Origin: Lunularia cruciata
Taxonomy: Eukaryota > Streptophyta > Marchantiopsida > Lunulariales > Lunulariaceae
Direction: 5' to 3'
Assembly: GCA_948567375.1 (NCBI GenBank)
Contig: OX419756.1
Location: 6,205,001 to 6,269,000 of the forward strand
DNA: 64,000 nucleotides
Position 1 is the stretch's first letter, and every line of letters starts with the position of its first letter. Shown here one piece after another: positions 1-38,055 of the stretch. Under the pieces are notes generated by a model. That model saw nothing but the letters and a program-made list of their open reading frames with translations. It ran no database searches and was not told where the DNA came from. A program made the translations under genes and the position numbers.

Positions 1-695
1 ATCTTCAAGACGAGCGGAAACAAATTCTCTTGGCTTCTAGCCAATTGGATGGCGTGGCAAAACTTTGGTGGCAATTCCGAGTAGAAAGAGCTGAATGACA
101 AATTGTTACACCAATTTTGACATGGGCAAAAATCAAGGATGCAATACTTGGTCGATTTCAAACTATAAATGCCACCCAAGCCGCACGAGATAAATTGGCG
201 GAGTTGAGGCAGATTGGCTCAATGAGAAGCTACATCACACAATTTCAGAACATCATCATGCAAATTCTAGATATCCAAGAAGGTGAAGTTATGGATTGAT
301 TTGTGCAAGGATTGAAGTCACGAACCAAATTGGAGGTGACCATGCGGGAGCCACAAAATGTAGAAGAAGCCATGCAATTGGCTGAGCGTTTTGATTCCTT
401 GGTTGCAATAACTTGGTCTCGACCTTGACCTACACAAAGCCTACCAGTACCACGAGTGGAAGAACTAGTACCAATGGAGATTGATGCTATCCAACGAAGA
501 TGACTTGGCACAACAGATAAAGAAAGATTATGACAAAATGGAGGTTGCTTTTATTGTCGCCAAGTTGGACATCGCATTGCTGAATGTCCACTTAGGAATG
601 GGCGACCTTGACAAGTTGCCCAGATGGAGTTTGTGGAACAGAATGTTCAAGGAAATGAAGAATCCTAGTAGGAGATTTCGAGCCGCCTACTAGGA
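1..695 (+). pseudogene. gag of the chromovirus, partial
   Basis: This is the capsid/nucleocapsid part of a gypsy polyprotein, cut by the window edge. The first 300 bases read as a retrotransposon gag domain (WWQF, then TWAKIKDAILGRF and a conserved LRQIGSMRSYITQFQ stretch). At about 545-590 a CCHC zinc knuckle is intact, CFYCRQVGHRIAEC, spaced C-x2-C-x4-H-x4-C. In-frame stops at about 298, 427 and 690 separate the pieces, so no full-length protein can be made. It runs directly into the protease. It would bind and package element RNA; this is from the family, not from anything seen to be functional here. Confidence 0.85.
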
Positions 696-697
696 GC

Positions 698-1462
698 TTG
701 ATTAGTTCCAATGGGATTGAAGGCTCAACCTATGCAAGTTTGCTTCACTTGCAAGGTACAATATCTAATTGGGGTTGTAGGATTCCGGTTGATTTTGGAA
801 GTTCAAAAAATTACATGTCTATGCAAGTAGCAAAGGAGTTGGGTATTCCTATCAAGCCAATGTTTGGAAGTAGTTTGATGATGGCGGATGGTAGAAAGGG
901 TCCTGCATTCCGCACCTCACATCCTGTTACCTTCAAGATTGGGAATGAGTATTTGGAGTGTATGAGGTTTGTAGTGGCACCTCTACACTATGATATCAGT
1001 CTAGGTCTACCTTGGCTTGAACATCGTAAGGTTCAATTTGATTGGACCCGACGACAAATTCAAGTACAACACCAAGGTAGAAATTCCCGTTTAGGTTGTT
1101 TGGCACCTCTGAGTAAGACGCCTAAGAATAGTCAGTCCCAAGATGGGAAGTTTATCGAGAAGGTAGCCATAGAGCAAATCTGGAAGAGAGATGAGTCCCA
1201 AGATGGGGAGTTTGCCAAGAAGGCAACCATAGAGCAAGCTTAGAAGAGAGATGAGTCCTTGGAAGGGAAGTTTGTTAATGAAGCGGCCATAGAGCAAGAT
1301 TTGGAGGAAGATAAGTCTATATTTGCGGTGTGGGTCAAGCCGATTGCACAAGAACAATCTGAGGAGGGCCAAGAGCCTCATCAAGCAATGGTTGATCAAA
1401 TAGTTCAGGAGTTTGCAGATGTGTTTCTGGATGATCTGCCAAAGGGATTACCCTTCAATTGA
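698..1462 (+). pseudogene. aspartic protease region of the chromovirus
   Basis: A retropepsin-type domain follows gag. The active-site segment reads VDFGSSKNYMS, where the family has D-S/T-G, so the catalytic serine or threonine is replaced by phenylalanine. Further on, HYDISLGLPWL matches the second conserved hydrophobic-Gly motif of gypsy proteases. The tail (about 1120-1300) holds an acidic stretch with three imperfect repeats of about 60 bases around the reading SQDGKF-EKVAIEQ. A stop at 1241 and another at about 1460 break the frame just before the reverse transcriptase. The domain identity is clear; the altered active site means a dead enzyme. Confidence 0.8.
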
Positions 1463-1465
1463 GGT

Positions 1466-2680
1466 ATGCCCTTCAAGATAGAGTTATTGCCAGGGAGTAC
1501 TCCAATGAGTAGACCAATCTATCGGCTCTCACCAAAGGAGTTGGAGGAGTTGCGAACAACACTTATAGAGTTGTTGGAGAAGGATTTCATACGACATAGA
1601 ACCTCTCCTTGGGGAGCACCGGTACTATTTGTTCCAAAGAAGGATGGAGGACTTCATTTTTGTATTGATTACCGTGGACTCAATAAGAAAATTGTGAAGA
1701 ATACATATCCCGTGCCTTGGATTGATGACCTGCTTGATCAACTAAGTGGAGCACGCTACTTTTCCAAGTTGGATCTTTGTAGCGGCTATTGGCAAATTTC
1801 TATTGAAGGAGAGGACGTGCAAAAGACTGCCTTTCGCACAAGGTATGGACATTTTGAGTAGAGAGTTCTACCTTTTGGACTCACTAATGCTCCAGTAGTC
1901 TTCATGGATCAGATGCATTGGGTGTTGGAGGGACTATTGGATCGGTCCGTGGTGGTGTTCTTAGATGATATTCTAATCTATAGCAGGATAGAGGCAGAAC
2001 ACGTGAATCATGTGCAAGAAGTCCTAAAACGACTACGACAGTGGAATTTCTACTGCAAGAAGTCAAAGTGTGCTTTTTGGCAGAAGGAGGTTACCTTCTT
2101 GGGTCATAAGATCTCATCAGAGGGGATCAAGATGGAAGAAGAGAAGATCAAGGCCATTACTGATTGGCCTACCCCAAAGGATGCTACAGAAGTACGAGCA
2201 TTCAATGGATTGGCCAGTTTTTACCGAAGGTTCATCCACTATTATGCTCACGTGGTTGCACCATTGACTGACCTCTTGGGAAAGAACTCGAGCTTCCAAT
2301 GGACCACCAAGCATGAAGAAGCATTCTAGAAGTTAAAGCATATGGTGTCTTCAAGACCCATTCTTCAACCATATGATCCTCAACTACCTTATGTGGTTGA
2401 TTTTGATGCTTTTAACTTTGCGATTGGAGCTGTGTTGCAACAAGAATTTCCAGATGGACTACATCCTATTGCCTTTGTGTCTTGCCGACTAAATACAACT
2501 GAAAGAAACTACTCTGCTTGAGATTGTGAACAACTTGCAATGGTATATGCCACCAAGGTATGGAGGCATTATCTCTTGGGGAAACAAGTGATCATGCAAA
2601 CTGATCACAAACCATTGTTGCAGACCTTACACTTGGAGCACATGAAGAGTCGGCATCATTGATGGGAAGAGCAACTCCAA
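1466..2680 (+). pseudogene. reverse transcriptase and RNase H of the chromovirus
   Basis: The fingers-palm region is nearly complete: [25 protein letters not shown], then [13 protein letters not shown], then LPFGLTNAP, then the catalytic VVVFLDDILIYS box (FLDD, the plant gypsy form of YxDD). The connection and RNase H follow (PYVVDFDAFNFAIGAVLQQ, DGLHPIAFVS, VIMQTDHKPL). Stops lie at about 1859 (TGG to TAG likely), 2328 (CAG to TAG), 2520 and 2662 (CGA to TGA). The catalytic aspartates are still readable. The role in a living element is to copy element RNA to DNA and to remove the RNA strand. Confidence 0.92.
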
Positions 2681-4281
2681 TTGTTTGACATCAAACTTGA
2701 ATACAAACCAGGTTGGTTCCATGTCATCCCCGATGCTCTATCACGACGACCTGATTTGAAGGATCTTCCTCTCATCACGACGGCAATTACAATGGTGTCC
2801 ATTGACCCTAAGGTCCATAATGAGTTTCAATCAGCTCGACAACAAGATCCCTTCTTCCAAATGGTACACGGTCGTCTGATAGCACGCAACAAGGAGTACA
2901 ACACCTTCTCCTTCAAGGAAGGCCTTTTATTCCATGAAGACCAAATCTATGTTCCAGCCAAAGGTGATCTTCAACTTGTGCGCCTTCAAGAAGCCCATGA
3001 TTTACCAATAGCTGGTCACATGGGAGTGGACAAGACCTTGGGCACCCTCCAACGCCAATGGTGGTGGCCCAACATGACATGAGATGTTCGAGACTTTGTC
3101 CGATCATGTGAGAGTTGCCAACGGAACAAGGCCAACAACCAGAAGCTGAGTGGACTCCTTCAACCACTCACCATTCCATCCGCTCGTTGGGAGCATGTGA
3201 GCTTGGATCTCATCACATCCTTGCCAAAGACAAAACAAGGACACACTGCAATTGTGGTGTTTGTGGATAAGCTTAGTAAGAAAATCCACTTGGCACCAAC
3301 TTGTGATACCGTGGATGCTCCAACCTTAGCGCAAATCTACTTCAACAATGTCTTCAAGCATCATGGGATGCCACGTGTACTCATCTCCAACCGTGATCCT
3401 CGATTTACCGGGAAGTTTTGGCAAGCACTCTTCCAGATACTCGGTACCAAGCTTGCTTTGTCCACAGCCTATCATCCTCAAACTGATGGACAAACCAAAC
3501 ACGCCAATCGTACATTGGAGGATATGTTGCGGGCCTTTGTCAATGTCCACCATACCAACTGGGATGAATGTCTTGCAGTTGCAAAATTTGCCTACAACAA
3601 TTCCAAATAGGCAAGCACTGGATTTTCTCCCTTCTTTCTCAATTTTGGCCAAGATCCGCTTGTTCCAGATTCTCTTCTTGCTCCCCCTCCCTCTCAGGTT
3701 CCTCATACTTCTACATTCTTGACCACTATATCCCAATCTCTCCAACAAGCCAAATCTCACCTCCTTGTTGCTCAAAATTGCCAAAAACAATATGCGGACC
3801 ATCATCGTCGAGATCTCACCTTTGAAGTTGGTGATAAAGTCATGCTATCCTCTAGTAACCTCCCTCTCCCACTTGATACCCAAGTTCGTAAACTTGCTCC
3901 TAATTGGATAGGACCCTTTGATATCACCCACATTATCTCTCCTGTTGCTTATCGACTTGCCTTACCTTGTCACATGCGTATCCATCCTGTCTTTCATGTT
4001 TCCAAGTTGAAACCTTTTGTTCCTTTTCCTCTCGAGTCCAACCTCCCCCTCTTCCTATCCCTATCAATGATCATGAGGAGTACAAAACTGATCGTATCCT
4101 TGCGCGTCGCCATATTCAACGAGGCCGTCGCCAACATACGGCGTACAAGGTCCTTTGGAAAGGGTATCCCCTTCATGATGCCACATGGGAACCTCTTTCT
4201 CACCTCCAGAATGCACAGATGGCCATCAAGGAATTCAAAGCTTCATTGGCAACAAGGACGTCACCAACTAGCGGCGGGTGA
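2681..4281 (+). pseudogene. integrase with C-terminal chromodomain
   Basis: The zinc-binding part shows the HHCC arrangement (HDLPIAGHMGVDKT, then CESCQRNK at about 3110). The catalytic core follows: LDLITSLPK (first Asp), SNRDPRFTGKFW (second Asp) and TDGQTKHANRTLED, where the family has GQTE; the third catalytic acid, Glu, is replaced by Lys, which a single G-to-A change explains. Stops occur at 3080 (CGA to TGA) and 3608 (CAG to TAG). The C-terminal GPFDITHIISPVAYRL module is followed, after a frameshift near 4035, by a chromodomain at about 4100-4250 with YKVLWKGYP and ATWEPLSHL. Chromodomains target such elements to marked chromatin. The enzyme is dead. Confidence 0.92.
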
Positions 4282-4284
4282 ATA

Positions 4285-4747
4285 TGTAACAATATGGAGT
4301 TGAGTGACGAAGTTAGTTGGGCTTACAAAGTAGAGAATAAGACAAAATAGCCTAGAATATTCTAGAAGCATCTAAGAAGCTTCTGAGGAAGCTTCTCAAC
4401 TAGTTAACTTGCGCCCTAAGCAGGTAGCTTCTAGAAGCTTCTAACTAGCTTAGCTTACACGCCAAGTAGGCGGCTTCTAGAAGGAAGCTTCTTGAGAAGC
4501 TTTCTAGTTAACTTGGCTTGCACTCCAAGAAAGCGGCTCAAGGAAGTTTCTTGAGAAGCTTCAAGGGTCTTGTATGCTACCTATAAATACCAAAGCCGAA
4601 GCTCATGCTAGGCATTCGGAGTTTTCCTTCATTCAAATGCCCCAATGTGAGTTTCCATTCTCCTATTTCTCTCCTCAGTTTTGGTCTTTTACATTATAGA
4701 TCCTTGATCTGTTGATTTCATCCAAGAAATTATGTATATCTACAACA
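4285..4747 (+). repeat. 3' LTR of the chromovirus
   Basis: The sequence starts TGTAAC directly after a purine tract and ends ACAACA, the usual TG...CA ends. It contains several copies of an AGAAGCTTCT-like palindromic word (TTCTAGAAGCTTCT and variants at about 4365-4560). CTATAAATACC at about 4580 is a good TATA box for the LTR promoter. Its partner LTR lies outside the window. The minus-strand copy at 24.79-25.26 kb matches along most of its length, which supports these borders. Confidence 0.75.
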
Positions 4748-4749
4748 GA

Positions 4750-5034
4750 CAACACCGACTACACTTGATGTTTCGACAGGCTGCACTATCTTGAGAGTGC
4801 ATGAGGTTTTTCCATCTGGAGTCCTTGTGTTAGAAGGATGTGATGGTGTTTTTTGGAAGGATCATGTGCACAATTGTGCACCATGCCACCTCCCAAACAT
4901 TGATGGTACTATGGACCCAAGCTTGGCACTTGTACGTGCAGGCTTGAGGTGTGTGTTATGTGGCTCTTCTGGTGGAGCTGCTACTATGTTAGTGTGTGAT
5001 AGTTATTCAAGAGGATAGCATATGGCATGAATGT
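4750..5034 (+). pseudogene. PHD-finger fragment of a gypsy polyprotein
   Basis: An open stretch right after the LTR reads VHEVFPSGVLVLEG, then NCAPCHLPNIDGTMDPSLA, then CVLCGSSGGAATMLVCD and a degraded end. The spacing C-x2-C ... MLVCD-x2-(S/C)-RG-(stop)-HM is that of the first half of a PHD zinc finger, C..C...CD.C..GWH..C; the third-pair cysteine now reads Tyr and the Trp codon reads TAG. From memory, this linker-plus-PHD arrangement sits downstream of integrase in a class of plant gypsy elements. It does not belong to the chromovirus, which ends at 4747. It may belong to the methyltransferase-bearing lineage found at 9.4-14 kb, but this is an inference. Confidence 0.6.
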
Positions 5035-6240
5035 ATCCTTCAATTATCACACTTGAAATTATTATGAGACCTACTATGCGCACTGAGTTAGAATTTTTGA
5101 AAGTTGATAGGGTAAACTGCTCCCACAACTTCATGCTCTCTAGAAAATTGTACAGAGTTTGCCATTTCTTCAATTTTCAATGGAATTTTTTGAAAACTTC
5201 CAAGAAAATTCAATGCATTATATCCTACATTTTGACACAAAATCTAGAGAGAGATCATTCTTGCACAAGGATTAATGAGTTTTTAAAGTTAGGGGGGTGG
5301 TTTTTAGACCAAATCTGAAATATGTGTGCTGAATAGAAAAATACCTAGGCCAAATTGCTCAACAAAAAGATCTGAAATTTTGCAGGAAGAGACTTCTTAT
5401 AGTTGTGATCAAGTGTGCAGAATTTCAAAGGACTTTGACTTACCAATTGAGAGATGTGACTGACATTGTGAGAAAGGGTAAATTTTGCAAAGTTTAGATC
5501 TTATGCATGAGGAGTGTGAGAGCAACAAAAAGCATATTTGAGTGTTTAGACTCATCTTGGGAACATGGAGAGTTACAAAGAGTGTAAATTGAGGCTATGA
5601 AAGGTTCCCCAAGGGTTTGAGGTAATTGTAAAGGTAGATTTGAGAAAAAGAGAATTTAGAATAAAATTTGAACAGAGTGTTGAGAGGATCCAAAAACTTA
5701 CACCACTTGGAAGAAAGAGTGAGTCTAAGTGCTTTTATGTGGAGAGAAGGGACAAAAGGCAAGTTCATATCCATTGACTTTTGAGAGCAAAATATTGAGG
5801 GAAAGGAGAGGCTTACTTGACTTGTGTTTTCATGTTGGACCTTCTTTACCAAGAGAGAAGATCTAAGACCAAGGAGTTATGTGAGGTTTGTGGAGTGGAA
5901 GGACTTCCAAAAGGATGTGAGTGTAGTAAAAGCACTTTGGAGACTTTGGTGAAGGATCTTGGAAAGAGTTTAAGTATACCTACTGAAATACTACCACCTT
6001 CATCGGCTAGTTCTCAAGATTAGTGATGGAGATAATGTTTCAACTTATGGATAAATTATCCATGAGAGTTTGATTAATATGCACTCTAGGATTTGATGTT
6101 GCTATAGAAATCTTGGAGCAACCTGAAATTTTTGTGTTCCCTAGGATGGATTACTTTTAAATGGTGTCAATCATGTATATACTCTATTATTTATAGATTG
6201 AGAGAAAAAAATTGAGAAAAAAGAAACATAGTGAGGGGTT
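5035..6240. other. AT-rich stretch without a recognisable gene
   Basis: No conserved protein is visible on either strand; the longest open frames are under 100 codons and look random. The stretch lies between the PHD fragment and the gag of the next element, so it may contain a decayed LTR and leader, but I could not find a pair of matching ends. A GGGGGG tract at about 5292 is the only purine-rich candidate. Confidence 0.5.
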
Positions 6241-6243
6241 AAG

Positions 6244-7470
6244 ATGGGAAAGCTTCTAGTTTTCTTTGGCAAGGATGGAGGAGATGTGGAGGCCTTTGTG
6301 AGAGAATTCAAGAGAGCTTGCACAATGAGAGGAGGAAGAATGAGTGGGCCTCATTATTACCAAATTTCTTTGAGGATGCAGCACTTACATGGTATGAGTC
6401 AGAATACCAAAAGAGAAAGAGGAAAGATAGGCAAGAAGAGTCTTGGGAGAGTTTGACTTCAACACTCATTGAGAACTTTCTTCTAGATGAGAGTTCTGAG
6501 AGATTGATGAATGATGTTACCTTCCTCAAGCAAGGAGAGGGAGAGAAAGTGAAAATCTATGTGGAAAGAGTGGAAAAGTTAAGAGTCCAGATTTTGTATA
6601 GTGTTGAGGAAAGGTGAGGATCATGTGGAGACAACTATGATTGGCATAGGGGCCATGCTCACCAAGAAATTTATGGGAGGATTGAGACCACAAATTAAAA
6701 ACTAGGTGAGATGAGAAACCTTCTTCCAAGGTTGAAGCTATCAAGATCTCAATTCCTATGGAGGAGAGTTTGGAAGGAGATGAGAGTGATTTGGTGGTGA
6801 ATGAGGTTTTGCATCCTCCTCAAGGCTACAAGTATGGTGGAACTTCTATACTTTGGTGGCAAGAGTTGCACCACAAGTAGTAGTTGCTCCAATTCTTACA
6901 CCTCCACCAAAAAATCCACTTCAAACTATCACAAAACAACTTGCAAATCTTAAGATCAATGTGGTGCAACTATGGGAGAAAAGAAAGGTGGATTAGAATG
7001 TAGGGAGAGGACCTAGGAGTTATGGAAACTATCCATATAGAGGAGGCCAACCAACCAACAATTTCAATGATAGAAATTGTTTTTGGTAGTGGAAGAAGAG
7101 GACATATCCAAAGGAATTGCCCAAATTCCATTTACCATGGAGGGAGCCAATAGAGGGAAAGAGGGAGGTAATGAAATCCAAGTGGCTCCTAATCCAAACA
7201 AAGGTAAGGGGATAGTATCTATCAATATGGTTGAGAGCAAGTATGAGAAGGGGGAGTGCTCAAACTCCAAAGGTCTTCATCTGGATCTTTTGGCACAAGA
7301 GAAAAAGAGAGCTTGTTTTGCAAAGGGTGTGCATTCTTCTCATAGATTTACTCCTAGCCAAGATACTCCTATGCCTACAAGGAGCACTTGCACAAGCATT
7401 TCAACACCATCAACAACGAAGACTCCAAGGAAGAAGTTGGGGATGGAGGACTTCTTGATCTCAAAGTAAA
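6244..7470 (+). pseudogene. gag region of the second gypsy element
   Basis: The beginning reads FFGKDGGDVEAFVREFKRA, followed after a frame change near 6340 by WASLLPNFFEDAALTWYES and ESWESLTSTLIENFL, typical of a retrotransposon gag capsid domain. Near 7076-7125 a zinc knuckle can be read in two frames: CFW, then GRRGHIQRNCP one frame over, so the second cysteine is lost by a small indel. A long low-complexity serine, proline and lysine-rich stretch follows to about 7470. The pieces cannot form one protein. Confidence 0.75.
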
Positions 7471-7484
7471 AATGAAACTACAAT

Positions 7485-7980
7485 ATGGAGGATATTGGTA
7501 GTCACAAGAGTAACATCACAGTGGGCCAATTGATTGCTTTGAATCCTAGTTTGAGAAAGGGGCTTAGAGGTAGTTTGATTTTTACAAGGAGCAAGAGGAA
7601 GAAGGAGGAAAAAGCTCCAGTATCAATGGGGGTGGTGGATGCTAAGCTAGCACCATGGGAGGCTTGTGAATATGCCTCCAAGATTGATGTGAGAGTGAAT
7701 AGTTGCAACATCAAGGATGCATTGGTTGATGGAAGATCAATAGTAAATGCCATGTTTGAAAGGTTGATGAAGAAGTTAGGTATGATACCCTCAAGACCTT
7801 CAACATTTGTGGTGAGTATGGCAAACAAGCAACAACTTTGACCAGTAAGGGTGATGGATAAGGTGGTAGTTTTAGTTATGGGAGTTCAGAATCTCATGAC
7901 TTTCCAAGTCTTGAAGGATTCAAGTTATGACTTACTTCTTGGGAGGCTATGGTGGAGAGCAGCATGTACAACTGATTGAT
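7485..7980 (+). pseudogene. aspartic protease of the second gypsy element
   Basis: The segment IKDALVDGRSIVNAMFERLM matches the gypsy retropepsin active-site region, where related elements have D-S/G-G-A/S; here the reading is D-G-R-S, so the catalytic triad is not canonical. Downstream, VLKDSSYDLLLGRLWW matches the second conserved motif (D-x-L-L-G-R-x-W). A TGA at about 7840 interrupts the frame between the two. Identity is good, function is not. Confidence 0.7.
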
Positions 7981-8394
7981 GACACAAAGGGTACTTGAGG
8001 ATTGGGCTATCAAACCAAAGAATCATAGTTTCTCTAACTAACACCACCAACACTTCACACTTAGATACACCATTTTTTGATTGTTGGGAATCAAATTCTG
8101 AAGAAGGACCTTCAGGTGTGGATACAAGCATGGAAGAGGAGACTTCCAAAGAGGAGGATAAATCTAAATCTGATTCAAATGTGTATCTCTTGTGTGCTAT
8201 AGATTTTGCACCTAAGCCAGAGGTTTTTGAGAGACTCAAATAAATCACCATTGATACTTGAGGAGATAGAGAAGAAGTTATCTACCCTCAAGTATCATCC
8301 AAATGTTACCAAGGAGGAGAAGGTGAGATTTGAGGAGATTAATCTACATGTTTGCTTTTAGTTACAATGATCTAAAGGAAGTCACCTTGGAGGA

Positions 8395-9440
8395 GCACAA
8401 GATAGAGGTGGAGTCACATGCAAGACTAGTACGCCAAAAGCAACATCACATTAGCCCACCTATAACTTTGGTTGTGAAGGAGTAGATTGATAAGCTCAAG
8501 GAGACTGGGTTTATCTTTGAGATGGAGAATTCAGAATGGGTATCTCCAGTTGTGATTGTGAAAAAAAAGAATGGCAAGCTTTGGGTATGTGTGGATTACA
8601 AGAAGCTCAACATTATTACTAAGAAGGACTACAACCCATTACCATTCATTGATGAGATCTTGGAGGAGGTTGTAGGTCATGAGAGGTACAAGTTTGGAGA
8701 TGGTTATAGTGGATATAACCAAATCAAGATTGCACAAGAGCATCAACAACTCACCACATTCACCACACTTTGGAGAACTTATGCTATCAAGGTCATGCCT
8801 TTTGGGCTTTGCAATGCTCCAGCCACATTCCAACCATTCATGAACAAGATATTTGAACCTTTCACTGGGAAATTTGTGAGAGACTTCATTGATAACTTTT
8901 ATGTCTATGGGAGCAAGGAGGAGCACTTTGAGCACCTAACTAAGGTCTTATAAGTGCTTGGATGAGGCAAATGAATCATTTAACCTAGAGAGGTGCATTT
9001 TTGGATGTGAAGAAGGTCTACTTTTGGGGCATATCATTTCCAAGGATGGAATAACAGTTAATCTTGAGAAAGTGAGGAAAATCTTAGACCTTCCATTCCC
9101 TTCAAGCTTGACAAAGTTATGCCGATTCTTGGGGATGGTTGGGTACTATAGGAGGTTCATCTTCTCATTTTCCAATGAGGCTTATGCATTGACCATCTAC
9201 ATGAAGAAGGGTGTAGATTACATGGTGATTTTGGAAGACAAGGAGGCTCTCAAAGATTTTGAAGAGCTCAAGCAATCCCTTGTTGTAGCTCTAATTCTTG
9301 CTAAACCCACTTGGACTAAGCCTTTCATCCTCCACACTAATGCCTTTAATGTTGCTATATGATGCACCTTAGTCAATTTTACCAAGATAGGCATGATCAT
9401 CAAATAGCTTATGCTAGTAGGCAGATGATTTCAACAAAGA
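8395..9440 (+). pseudogene. reverse transcriptase and partial RNase H of the second gypsy element
   Basis: The order is ETGFIFEMENSEWVSPVVIV, then VKKKNGKLWVCVDYKKLN, then YNQIKIAQEHQQ, then VMPFGLCNAPATFQ, then the catalytic box FIDNFYVYG, where the family has FIDD/FLDD (second Asp changed to Asn, one base). A stop at 8951 is followed by FLGMVGYYRRFI and the start of RNase H (PFILHTNAFNVAI, IAYASRQM). The usual S-D in RNase H (LHTDAS) reads HTNAF. The reading stops at the junction near 9440. Confidence 0.88.
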
Positions 9441-9790
9441 GATGCCCAATTGTATCAAAGATCACATGCCCAATTATATCAAAGATCTCCTCAGGTGTAG
9501 GCATGGCATACCAATCAAACCTAGTGTGTTGGTTGATACAATGATAATCTCTACACAATTGCCTATTTGTGTAGTTGCCATGCATATCCTTCTTGGCGGG
9601 CATCACTGTCACTGATGCATACTCTCTATGTGAAATCTCCACCAAACCAGCCTCAAAAGGTCTCTACTCCAACTCTGAATCAATGTCCTCTCCATATCAC
9701 TATATTGATAAGGACATAAAAAAACTCATGTATTTCTAGTCAGCTCAATCCAAATACAATGTCCTTTTAGAGCACCCAAATCCTTCATAT
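9441..9790 (-). pseudogene. N-terminal reverse transcriptase of the methyltransferase element
   Basis: The minus strand reads NTxVFLCPYQYSDMERTLIQ, then GLVEISHREYASVTVM, PAKKDMHGNYTNRQLCRDY, and YAMPTPEEIFDIIG, matching the fingers region of gypsy reverse transcriptase (PxxKKD-G-xR-C-DYR-IN and the PTPEEIFD motif). A 24-base tandem duplication (9442-9463 and 9466-9487) repeats the IFDIIGH reading. The polymerase stops there; palm, RNase H and integrase are gone, replaced by the second gypsy element in the opposite orientation. Confidence 0.75.
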
Positions 9791-9798
9791 TGAGGCAA

Positions 9799-10081
9799 AA
9801 CAACTCGTATAGCTCCTCAAGAATCTCCCAACTCTCTGTCGTTCCTCTCTTGTAAGCTTGGGTCCAAGATCTAGCTCCAAAGTATCCACTAAAATTGTCG
9901 TAGGAGTGGAAGACATACTGACTAGTTGCTACACTTGTTGAGGGCAAAACAACTTGTATAGCTCCTCAAGAACCTCCAAACTCTCTGTCTTTCCTCTCTT
10001 GTAAGCTTGGGTCCAAGATCTAGCTCCCAAGTATCCACTATAATTGTCATAGGAGTGGAAGACATACTGACTAGCTGCTAC
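9799..10081. repeat. 149-base-period tandem duplication
   Basis: About 134 bases at 9799-9932 recur at 9948-10081 with few differences. Both copies read on the minus strand as SQYVFHSYDN-SGY-GARSWTQAYKRG and EELY-LFC. The repeat lies in the linker between methyltransferase and reverse transcriptase. I do not recognise the encoded segment. Confidence 0.85.
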
Positions 10082-10369
10082 CCTTGGGAGCAATAGTGTC
10101 ATGCTCCTAACCACTAGAGGTTGTGACCTTTATATGAAAAACTCTCTCTACTTTGGCTACTAGCTCTACATGTCCTCTAGCATCATCCCAAGTAGACCAA
10201 GGGTGTAATCCAAGTAGCCCACCCTCACCTAGATAGACTCCAAGTAGACCACTCTCCCTAGTAGCTATTGGTTGTGTCCCAAGAATACCATCTCCACTCG
10301 GTCCATTGCTCCCAACATGTGCTTGAATCATCTTGATAGGCACAAGGCTCACAAGTGTCCAAGTGGTGA

Positions 10370-11400
10370 TACTTATCAACTGCATCCAACGCTGCTCTGC
10401 CAAGCCAAGGCTCACAATCTAGGTCAAACAGTTTAGGTCCATAGCCTGACCTAACATATGATGCTTGGATGCCTCTAACACTATTGGAACAAAGGTAATA
10501 CAAGTGCAAAAACCCATCGCCCATTCTCCCTCATCGACATTGGGCTCCACCAATTGTTGTAATTGTGAGTCCAAAACTAGTCCAAGACCTCCCTCTCAAA
10601 AAGCATGAGAGCTTCAAAAACTCATAAGTGTGGGAAAAGTGGCTTTAGGCTGTCCAACTAGATTCAACACTACCATAGATGACCTATCAGCCAATACCAC
10701 CGTTTGAGATAGACGCCCAACATCCAAGATGTCATTAAAAATGATATGATCTAGTCGCTAAATCTTGTCATACGTGCATTGTAGAACCTCTCTAGGCAAG
10801 AGGTTTGTCCACCAAAGACAAAGACAATGAGCCCGTGATACCACTCTGACTGCATCTAACAAAACACCAAGTCCCATCCAAGAATGGACCTGATCTATAC
10901 TTGCTACCACTCAAGTGCAAGAATCACCCATCAAAGTGACATTCTCCAAAATATAAGCTAGAGAAATGGACTGATGAACCTGGAGATGTCATAATATCCG
11001 TAACATCCCCCAATACACACCAGAATGGAGATCCTAAAGACCCAAACCTTGGCAAGCATGTGTATGTCCCTAACATGGCCATCCCAAAATCACCAAATGA
11101 ATAGGCCCATGTCTCTCCAAATCATGCTCCCCCAATAAGGAAATGTCTACTTGTAGGGCTTTCTGGTAACCCATGATTGCTAACATATTGTTGGTAATCC
11201 CTGACTGTTGATGGTAAAAACTCAAGATACCAATAAGCCAAGTGTGTCACATGATGTATAGAGACTCAACTCGCAATCTCATGTCTCTCCATATACAAGT
11301 ACCTTTGTACTTGTATACCCGTTTATAGAACCGTAGCTAGTCCGGTGCTAATTTCACCAAATAACTCCAATGGACATACTCCCTCTATTAGATACTACCA
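10370..11400 (-). pseudogene. DNMT3-like cytosine-5 DNA methyltransferase domain of a gypsy element
   Basis: The motifs occur in the right order on the minus strand. Motif I is PLELFGEISTGLATVL (about 11373-11326), followed by QRYLYMERHEIAS (motif II region). Motif IV is HLVILGWPC-stop-GHTHACQGLGL with the catalytic Cys codon at 11073-11075; the next codon, where PCQ is expected, is TAG. Motif VI is AYILENVTLMGD (ENV at about 10938-10946). Then come SRAHCLCLWWTNLLPR, and at the end EWAMGFCTC and HHMLGQAMDLNCL, which resemble the RLLGRSW-type end of DNMT3 enzymes. Motifs IV and VI share a frame; motif I is in another. In a live element it would methylate cytosines in DNA; the substrate context cannot be told. 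Stops make this copy inactive. Confidence 0.82.
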
Positions 11401-11775
11401 AGCAATGAGTATGGTATCCAGAGGTGTCAAGGTAACGACTCTGGAGGCTCATCCTCACACTTGTCTCTTGGTGGTACAAAGGCTCCACTCCAAGCCTGCT
11501 ACACCAATTGATCTGCATGTTGCTATAATGCCCCCTCTGAACTCCGCAATGGGACATGCAAGGTGGATAGAACAATCTCACTTGTACTCTAAATCCAAGT
11601 GATCTCTTCTAGTATTGGAGTATCCTTTGCATAGGCGTTCCTCTCCAATAAGTCACCAGGCCAAGTAATTGCACCATTAAAAGCTAAAATTGATGTTATC
11701 AATAGTCCCGGATTGTAGTGAGCCAAGACCGCCACTATTGAAACATATTAGTATGCGACATACTCTTCCCTCACC

Positions 11776-12381
11776 TTATTGCCAACCTGGTCTATAAGAG
11801 GTTGTCTCTTCCCAATAGTCAATATTGAAACCTACGGGGTATAACACTGCTCTCCCAACTAGCACATCATATGACTTAGCTATTGTTGCAATAGCTTGAG
11901 CTCTTACCACCAAGCTATCAGTTGGGTGACCAGGCTGAACCTGGACAACAAGCTCCCTATGTGTGATGTATTGTGTCAAACCACCACCTAGAGATGTCTG
12001 GATCTGAAATAGACACCTCTCCACATTGGTTTTTTGTAACTCAAGACCAACAACTACAACCTTCTCCAACATAAAGGGTTGCACACCAGAGTCAAGTAAG
12101 ACCCTTTGTGGTGTATAGACCTTCCCTAAAGGTCCCAACAAAAAAAAATTTCCCCTCTGGTTATCCAACAAGACAACCCCAAGTGTAAATTGTGCTTGCT
12201 CAAAGGCCAGTCTAGTTGGTAACTCCTCTAGTCTAGTTGCGACTGCTTGCCATAAACCATTGGTTGCTGAGCGGATCCCATGCTCCTCAACTAAGTCAAC
12301 TCCACTATCAACTACCTTTGCTCTAATAGTGGGGATCACATCATCCTTACTCTCACAAAGTATGGTAGCCAACCAAAACAC
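11776..12381 (-). pseudogene. protease region of the methyltransferase element
   Basis: A 201-codon open frame on the minus strand contains PQRVLLDSGVQPFMLEK, with an intact D-S-G retropepsin active site, and further on KSYDVLVGRAVLYPVGF, the second conserved motif. It is bounded by stops on both sides (YRPGWQ then stop). This is the longest intact piece of the element. It lies directly upstream of the methyltransferase reading, with about 370 bases of broken linker between them. In a living copy it would cut the polyprotein into gag, methyltransferase and polymerase parts; the cut sites are not identifiable. Confidence 0.75.
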
Positions 12382-12559
12382 TGGGGTTGGTCAACTCCTA
12401 ATCTATACATGTAACTAGTTGAAAATAATGGATATCGCATAATTAACTGAGCCACCTCCAAAATTGTGCTAGACTTAGTCTATGTAGTAGCAGGTAGTTG
12501 ACTAGTAGGTAGTCCATCATGCACCCCATCATTAGCTACCACACTTGCACTAGGACATC

Positions 12560-14000
12560 TAGGAGCCATGGATGACATCTGTAGGGCCTCAAAGAGTGTG
12601 AAAGACTGAGAAATCTGACCTATCTCTCAACCTCTCCTCTCTATGGGTCCAACTTCATTAATACTCCTCTAGGCTATAGAGCACGTACTGCACTCCTAGT
12701 CATTACAGAAAATGCATCCACTTGTGTTGCTCCGCACATGAAATCCAAGGCATCTTTATCACCAAAATATGAGGTGGAAGCCTCAACACCCGAATCTGAT
12801 CTCCTTTGAGCAAGGGCCATACTAGCCAATCTTTGCTCCAACTACTCAATCCAAGTAGCCATAGATATATCAGAAGTAAGGGCAGGTATTGCACCCCTAG
12901 GTGTAGATCCTCTACCATCTTGTCCTCCATGACCTAGAGCTCCTCTACAACATGCCATAATAGCTCTACCACTCCGTAACTCCGAGTGTAGGTCAAAGCA
13001 CCTATCACTAGTGTGACTAAATTTGTAGCAATGCTCACACTACCTCTATGTAGGTTGTGATGCACTAAAGGTATCAAGTCTGCTGCCCTGAGGGCACTCT
13101 TTCTTATGGTGAGGTTCACCACAAGTCCAACAAGCAACACCAACACTAATTGGCTATTGTTGACCCAAAAATGAAGGTAAGGGTCTAGCTCCACTAGGCC
13201 TTCCACTCGCTCCCTTGGATCTGGGTTGTCCACCTTGTCCTCAAAAATCAACAAGGTGTGGTGCACTCTGTTGCACTCTAGAAGAAGTCACAATTGTGGA
13301 TGAGGTCTCCCTACCAAATCCAAATGTCACCACTCTCTCCTCCACCATGTTGAGCTCAATATGCTCAGCCAAACCAAAGACCACCGCCAAAGTAGCATGT
13401 AACAATGTAGTATCACGAGCTCTACATTGTAACTCCTTGTCCAATATCCCATACCAAAACTAGACTACTTGGATTTCATTAATTCCTTGAGTATAACTGA
13501 TCAGCCATTTCATGTGAGTGTATGCCTCGCATAGGCTCTCTCCAGCCTTCTATTGGAACTTTTGCAAGCTCCTCAACTTGTTAGTACGCACTCCTTGGTA
13601 GTTATGCCTCAAACACAGGAAGAACTCCACCATGGGATTAAACCCTAGTACTAAACCACCTCCTATAGAGGTACCTCCACTCGTAGTAGCACTATCTCTA
13701 GCTAGTGCATCTCCAGTAGCTTCACCAACACTTCTTGAGCTAGAACTTGTGGGTATAGTTGATCAACACCTAGCAACCAAGCCTAAAGTAATGGAGACAT
13801 AGTTCAAAGACCAATATTTTCTCCATAACTCAATCTCCTCCAAGTGAGTTCTCTTGAACTCATGGTAATGGTCCATTGGCGGACCCTCCAAATGCTGAAA
13901 CAAGCTCTTCCAGCCATGAAAGTGTGAACAAAGTTGGGTTCTGCATCTATTGTAAATCTTACCAACTAGTAAACTCTTGGATGAAGTCATCCAACTCAAT
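12560..14000 (-). pseudogene. gag with two zinc knuckles, methyltransferase element
   Basis: From about 14000 downward the minus strand reads a retrotransposon gag capsid domain (GVRTNKLRSLQKFQ, AGESLCEAYTHMKWLI, FWYGILDKELQ, LAEHIELNMVEERVV). Two CCHC knuckles follow: CWTCGEPHHKKEC at about 13105-13150 and CEHCYKFSHTSDRC at about 12985-13040, both with spacing C-x2-C-x4-H-x4-C. A coiled, glutamate-rich tail extends to about 12700. Several stops (CAG or TGG derived) interrupt. The first residues near 13999 (MSWMTSSKSLL) are probably not the true start. Confidence 0.75.
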
Positions 14001-15100
14001 GGTATCCACTATACCCAAGTAAAACCTAAGGCCTTTAAAGGCCCCATAAATCTTGTCCATGTCCCACAACAATGGTGCGGATACACCAAGGGCACTCTCA
14101 ATGAATCAACTCATGTGTCAAACTCTAACTTAGAGTCAATCTCTCCCTCATTGGGACCTTAGATATAGGCTGATATCGAGCATCACTCCAAGTAAACCCA
14201 CTACGTATTGCAGGTCTATCTCCTTTGGAATTCCCAAATAACTCCTCATGACAAAGTAACCACAAATTGCCAACCACAATTGCAACCACAAGTACCCCAC
14301 CAAGAACCAACACCAACTAAGCACCACCAAGTGCCAATACCAATGGAAGAGTAACTACAAATGTAAATCTAAATGAGACAACTACACTAGGGGAAAGTGC
14401 AACATGTAACCTACCAACACAACACACACTCTCATGGTCTGCAGGTCATCACTTCCTACCTCACTGAAGAGAAACAAAGAAAGTCTAACTGGTCATCATT
14501 CCAATCTCACCACCAAGAGCATACCAAAGTACCAACAATCTAAATTTAGTGCATCTCACACAAACATGATGCACAAACATGCAGTAGAGAAAGGAGAGGG
14601 TCCAATCACAAGAAATTTAAACAACAATCTATCTCATAAAGCAACATGGAGCTGACTTAACCACCATTTGGCATTTGATATAATAGATATTCTTATCTAC
14701 GGTTTACGTTACCAAGATCACCAAGAATGGAATCAAACTGCATCTCCTAGCCAAAGCTACAAGTGTATAGATAACCATGGAATAGTCATTAGGATAACAA
14801 GTGAGGGTGGACCAGTTGGCTAGGACACCAATCTAGGAACCAGAGATCTAAGGGTCAAACCCTATTACGCACAATCTAATAGGATGGGTAGAATTTGCTA
14901 AACAATGACCAAGATCTACTCTAAACTAGCAAGCTGGCTTGTTGGCCTTTCTAGTCCTTCATAGCCTCTCATAGCCCACATCCCTAAACCTCAAAGCCTC
15001 TAAATGCTAAAAATTGATGTAAAATTTGACATAAACCCTAAAGTTGGCTGGCTGCCAAATCCTCCATTAACTCTTCACTTGAGCCAAATTGAAAAAATAG
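14001..15100. other. leader or spacer between gag and the LTR-like repeats
   Basis: No conserved protein is readable here. Given the minus-strand element on its left and LTR-like repeats on its right, this would be the 5' untranslated leader of the methyltransferase element plus decayed gag start. I could not find a convincing primer-binding site. A plant-initiator-tRNA-type PBS was looked for and not seen. Confidence 0.4.
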
Positions 15101-16540
15101 GTTTCTCCAAATCACAAATTCACAAGGATAGGTTCACAACTCCACCTTGTATTTCACTTTTTGAGCTCAACTCGCAACAAATTGGTCTTGCTTTCACCTC
15201 TTGAACTCAAAATCAAAACCATTGCTAAAAAATTGCTTCTCTTTGCTCAAAATTTGGCCGTCACTTCCGCACACCATCTACCTCACTGCCTAATTTGTAT
15301 CAATCAATGAGCTTCTACACACCAAAGAAAACCTAAACTTTGATCAAGCTACCAACGACCTACCGAGTTTGGAGATACCACCAACACTCGTAGTTCTTGC
15401 ATCCAAATTCCCTTGATCTCACTTCTTTGATACAATCAGTTTGTTACACCACTCAAATCAACTCAACTCAGATCAGTACTTGATTTGTCACTCTATAAAT
15501 TACCAATAATTGGACACGGATGATAGTCAAGCTACACCCACTCTAGCTAAGAGAATCCAGGTGACGCTCGCCGGCCTTTGTCCACCATAGCCAAGAACTT
15601 GAAGGCTCAACTCCAGAGAAGTTCTCTAGAGTTGCACTTTGAAAGTGTACCCTAGACTCGAGTTAAGTCTGAAACCCTAATGGTCCCATTGACATCACAC
15701 CCAATGGTGCAACTGGTGCAAAGTGATGGTGGGCCCCACCATGAAGTCAGTACTCCAAACACAAAATCTGACCTTCAAAAGTAGTCTACAAGTAACTGCT
15801 AAAATACCTCTAACCACTATCACTGCAACTCTAGTGTCCGAGCAATCTAGACGCGATACTACAAATGGCATGACACTTTCTTCAAATCTTTAATTTGTGG
15901 GAATACGTTCCCAACTCCACCTTCAATTTTCCCTTCGAGCTCAATTTTGTACCACATTTGTTCTACTTTCACCTCTTGAGCTCAAAACAAACACCACAGC
16001 TTGAAATTGATTCTCTTCTCAAGGAAATTTGGCCAGCCCTTCCATACATCGTCTGCCTCAATACCAAATCTGCATCATTTAGAAGAGCTTTTGAACACGA
16101 GTTTGCTCTCAACTCAAATCACACTCAATTAGGTTAGTACTTGATATGTCCCTAAACAATCTGCCAACAATTGGACACTAATTACAATCAAGCCACACCC
16201 ACTCTAGCTAAGAGACGCCAGATGATGCTTGTCGGCCTTTGTCCACCATAGCCAAGAACTCAAAGGCTCAACATCAAAGAAGTGAGCTCTCTAGAGCTGC
16301 ACTTCAAAAGTATACCCTTTGATCTTGACCTAAACCTCCAACTCTAATGGTCATATTGACTGCACACCCGATGGTGTGAACGGTGCAAGTGATGGTGGGC
16401 CCCACCATGTAGTTAGTACCCCAAACATGAAATCTGACCATCAACAGTAGTCTATGAGTAATTGCCAAAATACCTTTGACTACCAACACTACTACTCCAA
16501 TGTTCGAGTAATCTAGGTGAGATGCTACAAATCGTGACAT
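15100..16540 (-). repeat. two tandem LTR-like copies
   Basis: Two copies of a roughly 0.66-0.77-kb unit lie head to tail. On the minus strand one begins near 16540 with TGTCACGATTTGTAG and the other near 15874 with TGTCATGCCATTTGTAG. They share AGCCAAGAACT (15590 and 16250), ATGGTGGGCCCCACCATG (15725 and 16391) and a CAACTCCACCTT block near 15137 and 15911. The spacing differs by about 110 bases between the two halves, so one copy carries an indel. Starts with TG and the position upstream of a minus-strand gag suggest LTRs, possibly a tandem formed by LTR recombination. Confidence 0.6.
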
Positions 16541-33576: not shown

Positions 33577-36409
33577 CAAAGTTAAAAGGATTCTGTTTTA
33601 GAGCTTCCTTGAATGTCGAGTATGTAGACTAGGTCCTGAGAAAACCACGCAAATGACAACTCTGTGTTTCTAAGTAGGAGACTACCACCGGGTAAGAATC
33701 ATGTACAGTGGCCCAAATCTTATTGGGATAATTTAAATCAAAGCTACGCATTATCAAATCTGATGGTTGTACTCTCAAGTGGGTATTGCAAATTCTTCTC
33801 TTCGGATGAACTTGGCAGTGCTCTCATTACAGATATCTTCCAACGTTACATCGTTAGATAATACGCATACTTAGTATAACTATATTCTCTGTAACCGTTG
33901 TACTTAACAAAAAAATTTAATAAATGTGTGAAGTGAGAAAGGAAATTCCAGCTGAGAATGAACAATCTGAATAATTACACCAACTAATGGAGCATTACTT
34001 TGCAACAGTAACGCAGGAGTAACATGGCCTTCCCAAGGACGACCTTAGACTTGTTTACTATTTTTAATTGAATGCAGGACTTTCAGGCAGATAATGGACT
34101 GTAAGTAAATATTTTAAGTGGCTCTCGTCAGCCTCAGGCTTCTCATAAGCTCTGCTCTTCACTATTCAAGGATGCCTCTCTTGACCTGCAGTGGTTCGAA
34201 TCTCGCAAAGCTGATCTTTTTTCAACGATAACCAACCCGAATGTTGTCCAAGATGCCAACAGTCGAGTGCCTCCTGAGTTCGTTCGTTCGAGGTACTTTC
34301 GGGAGAGCGAATGCAGGTGGGAATCTAGGCTGGGCAGAGTGTTCTCCTCCTTGTGTCTACATCCAGGAGCTACCACTCCACAAGAGTATTACAAATTCTT
34401 TGAAACTATATGAGAAACTATATGATCAGTTTTGAATCTTAAAAGAGGACAAGGTTACAGGATATAATAAATGTATAAAATAGAATATGAATAGAATGGT
34501 AGAAAAGAATAGGAAGTGAAATTTTGGTACTTTACAGGATATAGAAGCTCATCTGGACACATTTCCCATGAAATCTATCCATGATAACACGACAAACCTT
34601 TCATCAACCATAGTGAGCAAGACACTGGAATTTCACAGCGTCTTGTGATTTCTCTCCATGTGCGAGTTGTAAGTCAAACCGGAGAAAGCACATTAGTTGT
34701 TACACGTAATTGCTCATTCAGATCCAGAATGCGAAATTGGACGTCACATATACGGTATGCAATATATACTGAAATACAGAACATTTAGTGTGTAATATTG
34801 GGTACAAGTCCAATAATGATCGGATCTGCACTGACAGTAAGGTTTATGCCATATACGTATTGAGGAATCAAGCATCGATGAATAGTTCTTGCATAATGGT
34901 AAGCAGGGAAGAGCTAGTGGTTAATAATTACTTCAAAGCAAAACTGCTCAGATGTTAAGTGGCATTAGGAATGAGCGATTTTATTTTGAATATTCTCATC
35001 CCTTAACCTTTGCTCTTTGACTAGGAGAATACGGGATGTCCAAAGATGGACTAACAGTACCCTAATTTTACAACCTGGACTTAAAGGCACCCCAAAGTTG
35101 AGTTGGAATTAGTCAGTAGAATAATATTTAATTGCATACTATGAAGGCATGTCTTAACATTCTCATTCAACTATTATTATTACTCTCTTACTTTAGTAAT
35201 TTAGCTTCTATTTTTGTAAACTGCTTTAATATTTCAGTCAACTACCATCATCATATTCAAATAATTTAATGATTTTAGCATCTCATTTATTATCGGTTCC
35301 CTTGTTTTCTTAGTTATAATAATATGGTGAAGTCTCTCAAGTATACAACATACTTTCATAATTCATAACACTTATAAATAGGGAGGGCAAATCCAACTAC
35401 TATGCGGAGGTTACTTGTCTATAAAATAATCATCGCTTATTAAAAGAAAATGCAACCGTCCAAAAATGCTTAGTGCCAGCACGGACTGACTAATTCACGT
35501 CAGAATTGGCGGTACTGTCAAGTCGTTCTACCAACTTGGTGCCGTTAAGGTCGAGTGCCTAAGTTCTGGTACTGTTATGCAAAACATCGAAATTTGATTC
35601 ATTTGAATGGTATGTTGAACCTCAATGCACTTTGTACAGTAAATTCTCCATACACATAGTATTATATTGGATGATGTAATTACGTTTTGCGTTATGATTG
35701 AGGTGCATCCTGCTTTAAGTAATTGCGCGTGGATATTCGCTTGTAGGCTCTTCTTGCTCTGACAGATTGACGTCACTCTATTTGCACGGAAGTTTTTGAT
35801 CGGCTTAACATTATAATTCATCTTGCTTATTATTTTCTAAGTTTCCAGTGCACATTGCTTCCCAATACTGGCAGAGCTGGACTTCATATCGACATGTCAT
35901 TCTGGAAAGAGTTTTAAGCCAAGTGAGGAAAAACCCAAAAACACTTGTATAGTAGAGTTAAAATATTGCAAACCAGTTACCGTTGTCAAAATCAAAACAC
36001 AAGTAATTAAACCGTGTAAATCGACAATTTTAACATTTAATTCACTCCGTGGATATTGAACCGAGTTATAGTGGTTTCTCGCCACTTCATACTATAAGCA
36101 CAGCCCTTCAAGTGCACAAACTAGAGGTTATCGTTGACCAATCATGTAATTATTACAAGATCTGCAATTTCAGATACTGTACATGTAACAGTTGATAAAC
36201 CACGGAGTAAGGGAGCCAAACAGGTTAAGTTACAGCAAATACGTGTGCTCGCAGATTGTCTAGGGTCGGGTTGTTTGAACATCCATGTAGGATCTGCAGT
36301 TTGAGATACGATCGATGAACCATGGTGTGAGGCAGCAAGAAAGTTGACAACAGCAAACTACAAGCACATTGTCAACCGCAATTGTCTGGATAAAAAGGGA
36401 AACGACCCG
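33577..36409. other. spacer, mostly AT-rich, no gene recognised
   Basis: Except for the open stretch at 34105-34413 listed separately, I see no coding signal. Bases 34900-36100 are AT-rich. No repeat shared with other parts of the window was noticed. Confidence 0.5.
34105..34413 (+). other. unassigned open stretch, possible old exon
   Basis: About 100 codons are open on the plus strand, from just after TAA at 34102 to a TGA at about 34411. The reading has a protein-like composition (SLDLQWFESRKADLFSTI, then VPPEFVRSRYFRESECRWES and TTPQEYYKFFE). A possible splice acceptor, CTCGTCAG, lies at about 34123-34130. I do not recognise a family, and there is no start codon near the beginning. It might be an exon of a lost gene or chance. 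Confidence 0.3.
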
Positions 36410-36655
36410 TCAGATCGCTTGCGTGCCTTCACCGCTGGTGGAATGAGCGCAGCAGGACGTTCATCAAGCAGGGCAACCTCTGGCCGTGAAGCCGACATTG
36501 CCCGCAGCATTCGCGCACTGGCACCCAAGCCGTTTCTCGTCTTCCGGGCTGTGAGACTTGTCTGTGTTAGTGCTCACAGATCAAGATGTACGTACTATAG
36601 AACAGATCCTGTTCAAGTATAGTCGTGACATGGGAAGAAGATACAGCACTCTATA
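36410..36655 (-). repeat. inverted third fragment of the duplicated segment
   Basis: The reverse complement matches 50518-50740 of duplication copy 2 almost throughout, from GCCTTCACCGCTGGTGGAAT through TTTCTCGTCTTCCGG to CGTACTATAGAACA and CTGTTCAAGTA. It contains the 190-base stretch missing from copy 1 (near 21935), so that stretch is ancestral and copy 1 lost it. No coding function is evident. Confidence 0.85.
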
Positions 36656-36908
36656 CATGCCCATCATTGCTCACAACCCAGTGTACAGTTTATCAAGTCT
36701 GCGCCATATGGAAGAGAACACATGCAACCGAACGAGTTCAATCTCAATTAATGAACAGTGTTTTTCATTACATCAGTTTTCTGGTTAAAAAAAACACTGA
36801 CAAGAACTTCCCCCTCTCGATAGCTGGACATTACAGGACCTGCAAGTCGAAGTCGCCCCAGCCGATACTCATGACATTTATAATATAATATCCTCCGTTA
36901 ATATGTAA

Positions 36909-37076
36909 ATTTTCTATTTGGCATACTATCAGAAACGGTAGAAAAGAATTTAATGTATATGTCAACAAGTACTTTAAATTAGGACGATGGTTTTCATTAT
37001 GCACAATAGCATATAGATATTTTGAGATATTATTATTCATATTGAAATCGTCCTCATTTGCAATACTTGAATCTAG

Positions 37077-37137
<61 letters not shown>

Positions 37138-37757
37138 AATGATGCTAGATTCAAGTACTTCATAATAGGATATGCGCAACCATGCTGCCATTCTTCGGTG
37201 TTGGTGAAGATTTGATAAATTGGCAATGTTGGAAGGATGAATGTCAATCTGCATTACATTTTCTTTTGTCAGCGCAAGTATCAAGCAAACCATCTCAATA
37301 CTCATTCCTTTCCTCTACATGTTCTTCTACCAATTGGACCACTTGACCTAAATTTTGGTTCAATGCAAATTATAGATTCAATTTTGGTACCAATTTCAAT
37401 TTTGATTCAATGCAAATTACAAGAATCAATTTTGCTTGTTGAAAACAAGATTACAAGAACCAAATTACAAGAATCAATTTTGCTTGTTGAAAACAAGATG
37501 GAATTATTGCTTTCAATCATTTGGTTTGCATAGACCAAAATTTAGGTCAAGTGGTCCAATTGGTAGAAGAACATGTAGAGGAAAGGAATGAGTATTGAGA
37601 TGGTTTGCTTGATACTTGCGCTGACAAAAGAAAATGTAATGCAGATTGACATTCATCCTTCCAACATTGCCAATTTATCAAATCTTCACCAACACCGAAG
37701 AATGGCAGCATGGTTGCGCATATCCTATTATGAAGTACTTGAATCTAGCATCATTCT

Positions 37758-37812
<55 letters not shown>

Positions 37813-37980
37813 CTAGATTCAAGTATTGCAAATGAGGACGATTTCAATATGAATAATAATATCTCAAAATATCTATATGCTATTGTGCATAATGAAAACC
37901 ATCGTCCTAATTTAAAGTACTTGTTGACATATACATTAAATTCTTTTCTACCGTTTCTGATAGTATGCCAAATAGAAAAT
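36909..37980. repeat. 1.07-kb foldback palindrome with (AT)n tracts
   Basis: The left arm 36909-37359 and right arm 37534-37980 are reverse complements of each other with hardly a difference, apart from the length of the (AT)n tract in each arm (37081-37135 and 37761-37808). The 174-base centre (37360-37533) contains a duplicated CAATTTTGCTTGTTGAAAAC word. The near identity of the arms implies a recent origin or gene conversion. The sequence could form a very long hairpin. No transposase is inside it. Part of the inner arm edge (37353-37404) is repeated directly at 38002-38055, just outside the right arm. Confidence 0.9.
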
Positions 37981-38055
37981 TGTAATTCTTGTAATTTGCA
38001 ATTTTGGTTCAATGCAAATTATAGATTCAATTTTGGTACCATTCAATTTTGATTC

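Follow-up and report, generated by a model that had tools for sequence, protein, structure and literature searches.

The 64,000-nucleotide stretch of the Lunularia cruciata genome analysed here (contig OX419756.1, positions 6,205,001 to 6,269,000; hereafter the window) carries a decayed Ty3/gypsy retrotransposon on its minus strand, from 15875 to about 9465, in which gag, protease, a cytosine-5 methyltransferase and the start of reverse transcriptase (RT) follow one another. L. cruciata is a complex thalloid liverwort, and the accessible text of PMC9985172 attributes growth of its genome to Gypsy bursts. The recognizable parts of the element, with related proteins numbered P and same-genome loci numbered L, are as follows:

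15433..15875, minus strand: left repeat arm A of a split long terminal repeat (LTR); 82.7% to arm A of L033 over 450 columns (blastn), ends mapped
12391..14343, minus strand: decayed gag region, approximate in its outer limits, with zinc knuckles at 13132 and 13039; from mapping of the L031 open frame
11776..12390, minus strand: protease region, its frame still uninterrupted over 204 codons, with D-S-G at 12099; 47% to P0007 over 205 columns (E 5e-61)
about 10407..11391, minus strand: broken cytosine-5 methyltransferase, DNMT3-like; from protein search, tblastn and alignment to L031
10072..10080, minus strand: TAG CAGCTA, corresponding to the UAG readthrough context before RT, with the stop at 10080-10078; from comparison with family loci
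9465..10077, minus strand: start of the RT frame (match at 9806-9547), then cut off, with an internal 144-nt tandem duplication (9794-9937, 9943-10086)

The element aligns with the same-genome copy L031 at 84.4% identity over 6286 bases, and this alignment places the methyltransferase motifs at 11367 (motif I), 11084 (GWPC), 10952 (ENV) and 10454 (LGQAMDLN). In tblastn, P0004 matched the window at 58% over 264 residues (11180-10389, E 7e-94) and at 59% over 88 residues (11436-11176). Stop-masked window frames used as a protein query gave 26 matches among 6206 candidates (E ≤ 10; best E 8.8e-101), with named relatives from Sphagnum, Calypogeia, Riccia and Marchantia and with PF00145 present in 11 of the 26. 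A preliminary description, made from the letters of this DNA, had claimed a minus-strand gypsy element with two zinc knuckles, a D-S-G protease and cytosine-5 methyltransferase motifs within 10370-11400, and each of these was recovered. Relative to L031, the window copy shows transitions at 38% of CG, 33% of CHG, 11% of CHH and 4% of A/T sites, which is the pattern expected from decay of methylated cytosines.

The anatomy of the family is legible in intact copies. In the copy L031/L032 (contig C2, at about 54.27 Mb), gag, protease and methyltransferase are encoded in a single frame of 1428 codons; after a UAG, the same frame continues with RT, RNase H, integrase and a terminal PHD finger, with one further stop in this downstream part. 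A second copy has the identical domain order, with a stop at a different place. Pfam identified RVT_1 (8.7e-20), RT_RNaseH (6.7e-37) and Integrase_H2C2 (5.3e-18) in L031/L032, along with rve at 8.8e-5, below its cut-off; the order RT, RNase H, integrase by which Ty3/gypsy elements are recognized is thus present in this copy, while the window keeps the RT start only. No tyrosine recombinase family appeared in the four stretches scanned with Pfam at E ≤ 0.1, which gave integrase families instead. The PHD finger of the integrase is similar to the PHD fingers of CHD4, KMT2D, KDM5, PHF21A and other proteins. Because intact relatives hold gag, protease and methyltransferase in one frame, with RT after one UAG, the pieces in the window belong to one element, in agreement with the earlier placement of the methyltransferase between protease and RT. 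The nested and broken state of the window region might have allowed two unrelated elements, or a host retrocopy, to lie side by side and only resemble one; this is refuted by the one open frame of the intact same-genome copies, and protease and methyltransferase also share single proteins in Calypogeia, Sphagnum and Marchantia, so that we give it a negligible probability.

The family is abundant and young. The genome searched comprises 566 Mb in 74 contigs, and the eight contigs that gave loci total about 558 Mb. With P0007 (protease plus methyltransferase) as query, all 62 scored places matched both parts at 63-65% identity. Twenty-six of them contain no internal stop and, together with the 1428-codon frame of L031, provide the intact one-frame copies envisaged in the preliminary description; in the other 36, every stop listed is TAG or TGA. 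The 62 places were drawn from 16941 first-look candidates, which are not copies, and protein-based copy counts are lower bounds. An exact 19-base junction between repeat segments B and A (B/A; see below) occurs 546 times in the genome (248 + 298), compared with 0 for the reversed control. Twelve copies, chosen from the 62 places for long open frames and not at random, were read at both ends; the left and right A arms of one insertion diverge by 0.004-0.020 in eight of them (the other four were skipped, their arm ends not being located by the script), and insertions whose arms differ so little are therefore recent. Among rare changes, confined to one or two of 26 copies, transitions affect 1.75% of CG, 1.77% of CHG, 0.24% of CHH and 0.07% of A/T sites; from this concentration at CG and CHG, copies appear to be methylated in both contexts once inserted. 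A P0007 scan of viral_contigs found no relative. The preliminary description had foreseen neither a dead copy amid abundant intact ones, nor an enzyme that ends the Gag-protease frame before a UAG, nor split repeats.

The position of the enzyme relative to this stop codon is constant. In all 30 loci compared, the methyltransferase is the end of the Gag-protease frame and TAG stands between it and RT; the following bases are CAGCCA in 28 loci, CAGCTA in one and CAGCCT in one. The motif UAG CARYYA, which is fitted by 29 of the 30, is given in the accessible part of PMC5382211 as the type I stop readthrough motif of tobamoviruses; the likeness is one of context only, here in a retrotransposon. 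If readthrough operates at this UAG, the enzyme is made at Gag level and not at Pol level. The family encodes a Gag-protease-methyltransferase polyprotein, and we infer that readthrough would yield a longer product with RT, RNase H, integrase and PHD finger.

The nearest match of the enzyme, both by sequence and by predicted fold, is DNMT3A/3B, which upholds the DNMT3 likeness noted earlier. The two differ in that motif IV reads PCN in DNMT3A and PCQ in the element enzyme (alignment), and in that the latter is fused to gag and protease. In P0114, P0117 and P0138 (Closterium and metagenome relatives), motif IV is ECQ instead of PCQ, with the catalytic cysteine kept. Five compared copies, from the same genome, Calypogeia and others, are 70-79% identical and keep the motifs. 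Nonsynonymous and silent variants were counted in 26 of the 30 loci, after L008 and L024 (gag) and L015 and L023 (RT), which run into other sequence, had been dropped; the p values are approximate, given the small shared counts and related copies. In the methyltransferase, the nonsynonymous:silent ratio falls from 59:26 among singletons to 8:14 among variants shared by at least three copies (p 0.006), as it does in RT (78:38 to 5:16, p 0.0004) and protease (15:10 to 1:7, p 0.039); the corresponding counts are 95:39 and 19:14 in gag (p 0.15), 32:12 and 1:3 in the linker before the enzyme (p 0.08), and 22:13 and 2:0 in the stretch after it (p 0.53). As shared methyltransferase variants are mostly synonymous like those of RT, the spreading lineage keeps the enzyme much as it keeps RT. 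The intact, recently inserted copies suggest that the methyltransferase is a functional component retained by the family and no accident. An idle passenger would suit the dead window copy and the at least one stop in 36 of the 62 scored places, but it was already weakened by this silent bias, and the motifs kept across the five diverged copies and the 26 open places also speak against it; we consider it very improbable.

What the enzyme would act on is a separate matter. Its most likely role is methylation of the element's own complementary DNA (cDNA) before or at integration; the enzyme would be produced in Gag amounts and travel inside the particle. According to the portions of PMC5890265 available, retrotransposon DNA methyltransferases (DNMTs) can methylate CG de novo and cDNA methylation has been proposed; the Gag-side dosage would add new support. 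The coding part of the family has observed/expected (o/e) ratios of 0.40-0.53 for CG and 1.37-1.68 for CWG, despite equal decay of CG and CHG after insertion, and a CG deficit not shared by CWG would be consistent with methylation of CG during the transmitted phase. As an uncontrolled comparison, the deficit was rejected as proof that the element methylates itself. The enzyme might instead act elsewhere, on the host genome, rival elements or element RNA, or serve as a structural extension of Gag, the gain coming through the host methylome, RNA stability or assembly. Dosage at Gag level suits a structural or trans role equally well, and PMC5890265, in the same portions, does not settle the role and considers RNA as a substrate of its long interspersed nuclear element (LINE) enzymes. 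Against this alternative, the closest fold and sequence are those of DNA enzymes of DNMT3 type, and the same paper reports that a retrotransposon DNMT methylates CG in DNA de novo; we judge it rather unlikely.

The repeats of the family are split. Each insertion is laid out as A (about 449 bp), genes, B (107 bp), GC, A and B, and its outer ends are TGTC...GACA flanked by a perfect 4-bp target duplication in each of the 11 copies, out of 12 fetched, that were read at the two ends. No copy is flanked by two whole LTRs: wherever the inner B was in range (10 of 10 copies), the left end is A and the right end A-B, and the inner B meets A in GACA-GC-TGTC, a perfect palindrome. All 40 junctions that were read far enough have a G-rich, polypurine-like stretch immediately ahead of the inner B. 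One hundred A/B joints were classed, taken from listed B/A sites on C1 and part of C2; all have an intact B/A site, and insertions without the site are unsampled. The joint is exact in 83 (19 of these with substitutions) and exact by eye in L091; six carry one extra A, T or G, L145 a small change, and L058 and L063 larger ones, while L078 and L151 are joined to inverted element sequence and L087, L113, L114, L118 and L129 run into other sequence. The class in which A is followed by interior, the sign of the other isomer or of an unsplit left LTR, has no member among the 100. Because the A/B joint varies like end-joined DNA, it suggests a circle reopened inside one LTR. Nine rare variants are private to both A arms of one copy and absent from the rest of 16 arms, which supports joint renewal of both arms.

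In the cycle that we propose from these patterns, plus-strand synthesis would start at B under ordinary LTR rules, giving a replicated LTR of B+A and a linear cDNA of B-A-genes-B-A. The ends of this cDNA would be joined (A/B), and integrase would cut the GACA-GC-TGTC palindrome inside the left LTR, so that A-genes-B-A-B would be inserted with a 4-bp target duplication, perhaps at sites to which the PHD finger guides it. The split repeats could also stem from a DIRS-like templated cycle in which the A/B junction is copied from RNA, without end joining and circle reopening. The repeat order equals that of DIRS elements (figure legend in PMC5890265), and one-base joint changes could be inherited through RNA as well. 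This cycle sits poorly with the Pfam matches, which are to integrase zinc-binding and core domains and not to a tyrosine recombinase, with the 4-bp target duplications and the polypurine tract-like stretch before B, and with one-base additions and joins to inverted sequence falling exactly at A/B; we hold it to be unlikely.

Several observations weigh against our interpretation. The window copy is dead, with 36 stops in one frame of 9400-11901, methyltransferase motifs spread over more than one frame, and RT cut off at about 9465, where gypsy-like pol frames on the plus strand (8486-9362, by eye) adjoin the truncation. Pfam gave only two sub-threshold chance matches to unrelated families in seven stretches of the window's own frames and no family in six stop-masked stretches, because the copy is too decayed; the methylase profile expected in the preliminary description is thus absent from the window's own frames but present in relatives found with them. 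The P0007 protease scores below its Pfam cut-off (20 versus 24.3 bits), and protease is not among the Pfam matches for L031; the only companion of the methyltransferase in its frame according to Pfam is a sub-threshold gag match. A1 and A2 of one copy are mutual nearest in only four of eight copies. In L031/L032 (L031:1337-1785 versus L032:1237-1694) and in L041/L042, one A arm of the insertion is 9 bases longer than the other, with variants elsewhere common to both arms; template switching is a possible source. Of two sequence-equal palindromes, only one seems ever to be cut, for which the circle model gives no explanation; the 107-bp distance from the joint is a possible cue. No tRNA primer site was assigned, and a 7-nt likeness just after A1 to the initiator tRNA acceptor stem, without the CCA part, is not claimed as one. 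Finally, a plus-strand gypsy element of the window in which no such enzyme was seen has a CG o/e of 0.45 (CWG 0.54); young families without the enzyme did not enter the comparison. Taken together, we consider it probable that the element in the window is a dead member of a Ty3/gypsy family that was active recently and combines a DNMT3-type enzyme at Gag level with methylation of its own cDNA, PHD guidance and integration from a circle.

Two further pieces of related elements lie in the window:

15877..16539, minus strand: second left end, older and from a related element; identity 78.9% with A (16539-16107) and 72% with the leader (16101-15877)
4694..5039, plus strand: 346-base fragment of another family copy, from C-terminal integrase to the PHD region; 91.6% to L032 564-909

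Other gypsy-like sequence is found on the plus strand: an element with long pol frames at 659-4303 (no methyltransferase seen; CG o/e 0.45) and a decayed one at 5900-9400 (CG o/e 0.02 over 6240-9360), which ends at the truncation of the methyltransferase element. Elsewhere, a plant U3 small nucleolar RNA gene occupies 36404-36626 on the minus strand (105.8 bits), adjoined by frames at 36831-37253 (minus) and 37579-38052 (plus) that share one peptide stretch as an inverted duplication. A 455-codon open frame at 52517-53884 (minus) is, by eye, presumably like a C45-type acyltransferase/peptidase.

Named relatives of the family come from Marchantia, Calypogeia, Riccia, Sphagnum and Closterium. 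An RT-RNase H query gave 1104 matches; among the best 120 listed, 31 have a PHD finger and three combine PF00145 with RT, including Marchantia Mp_2g26090 (P0039), and Closterium and Klebsormidium names also occur. Fern, lycophyte and seed-plant names were not among the matches listed, including these best 120 of 1104; many matches are nameless, and this is no evidence of absence. P0030, a 1083-aa frame from RT to PHD, bears a transcriptome-assembly name from EukProt, so that a relative of this type seems to be transcribed in some eukaryote. The preliminary description had supposed that the protease-methyltransferase-RT order might be new or little described in a land plant. By title or abstract, no DNMT-bearing gypsy element of a land plant was found in the open-licence PubMed Central (PMC) literature; the same order in other land plants means that it is not confined to this genome. 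As far as this literature was searched, what is new comprises the bryophyte occurrence, a young high-copy family, a Gag-side enzyme with its UAG context, a PHD integrase, and ends, duplications and joint variation suggesting an origin of split repeats. The bryophyte occurrence contradicts the broad form of a 2019 statement, as worded in its accessible part, that land plants are without such transposons; the accessible part of PMC12344493, with reference to PMC5890265, notes DNMT3s of retrotransposons in streptophytes and dinoflagellates. Near relatives are annotated in Marchantia, a tractable liverwort, and this young, high-copy family allows one to ask why a transposon carries the mark used to silence it, and a split LTR together with an integrase is a direct test case for integration from circular DNA.

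More tentatively, and with less than even confidence, we propose an undescribed land-plant life cycle in which a DNMT3-type enzyme at Gag dosage acts on the element's own cDNA, the integrase reads chromatin through its PHD finger, and an end-joined circle is cut at a palindrome inside one LTR, every insertion thereby splitting the LTR, within a split-repeat gypsy line extending from streptophyte algae to bryophytes. The precedent named in the preliminary description, in dinoflagellates and algae, was correct, PMC5890265 (de Mendoza et al. 2018) describing cases in dinoflagellates and a charophyte in the sections available. DIRS retrotransposons share the split A-genes-B-A-B repeats, but their tyrosine recombinase was not found here. 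SymbioDIRS-Dnmt3 of Symbiodinium shares both the repeats and a DNMT3-type domain and, according to these sections, has a tyrosine recombinase, whereas the present family has an integrase with 4-bp target duplications. Closest by description is KnitGypsy-Dnmt3 of Klebsormidium nitens, with its gypsy domains, DNMT3-type domain and DIRS-like A-genes-B-A-B order; no Klebsormidium methyltransferase sequence was among the matches listed in the relative searches. A PHD finger (0 occurrences of the term), target duplications, a palindrome and joint variation are not among its features in the sections available. Purifying selection on its DNMT domain is reported there, as a silent bias is found here; its DNMT domain, however, lies in the Pol open reading frame, whereas in the present family it stands at the end of the Gag-protease frame, before the UAG.
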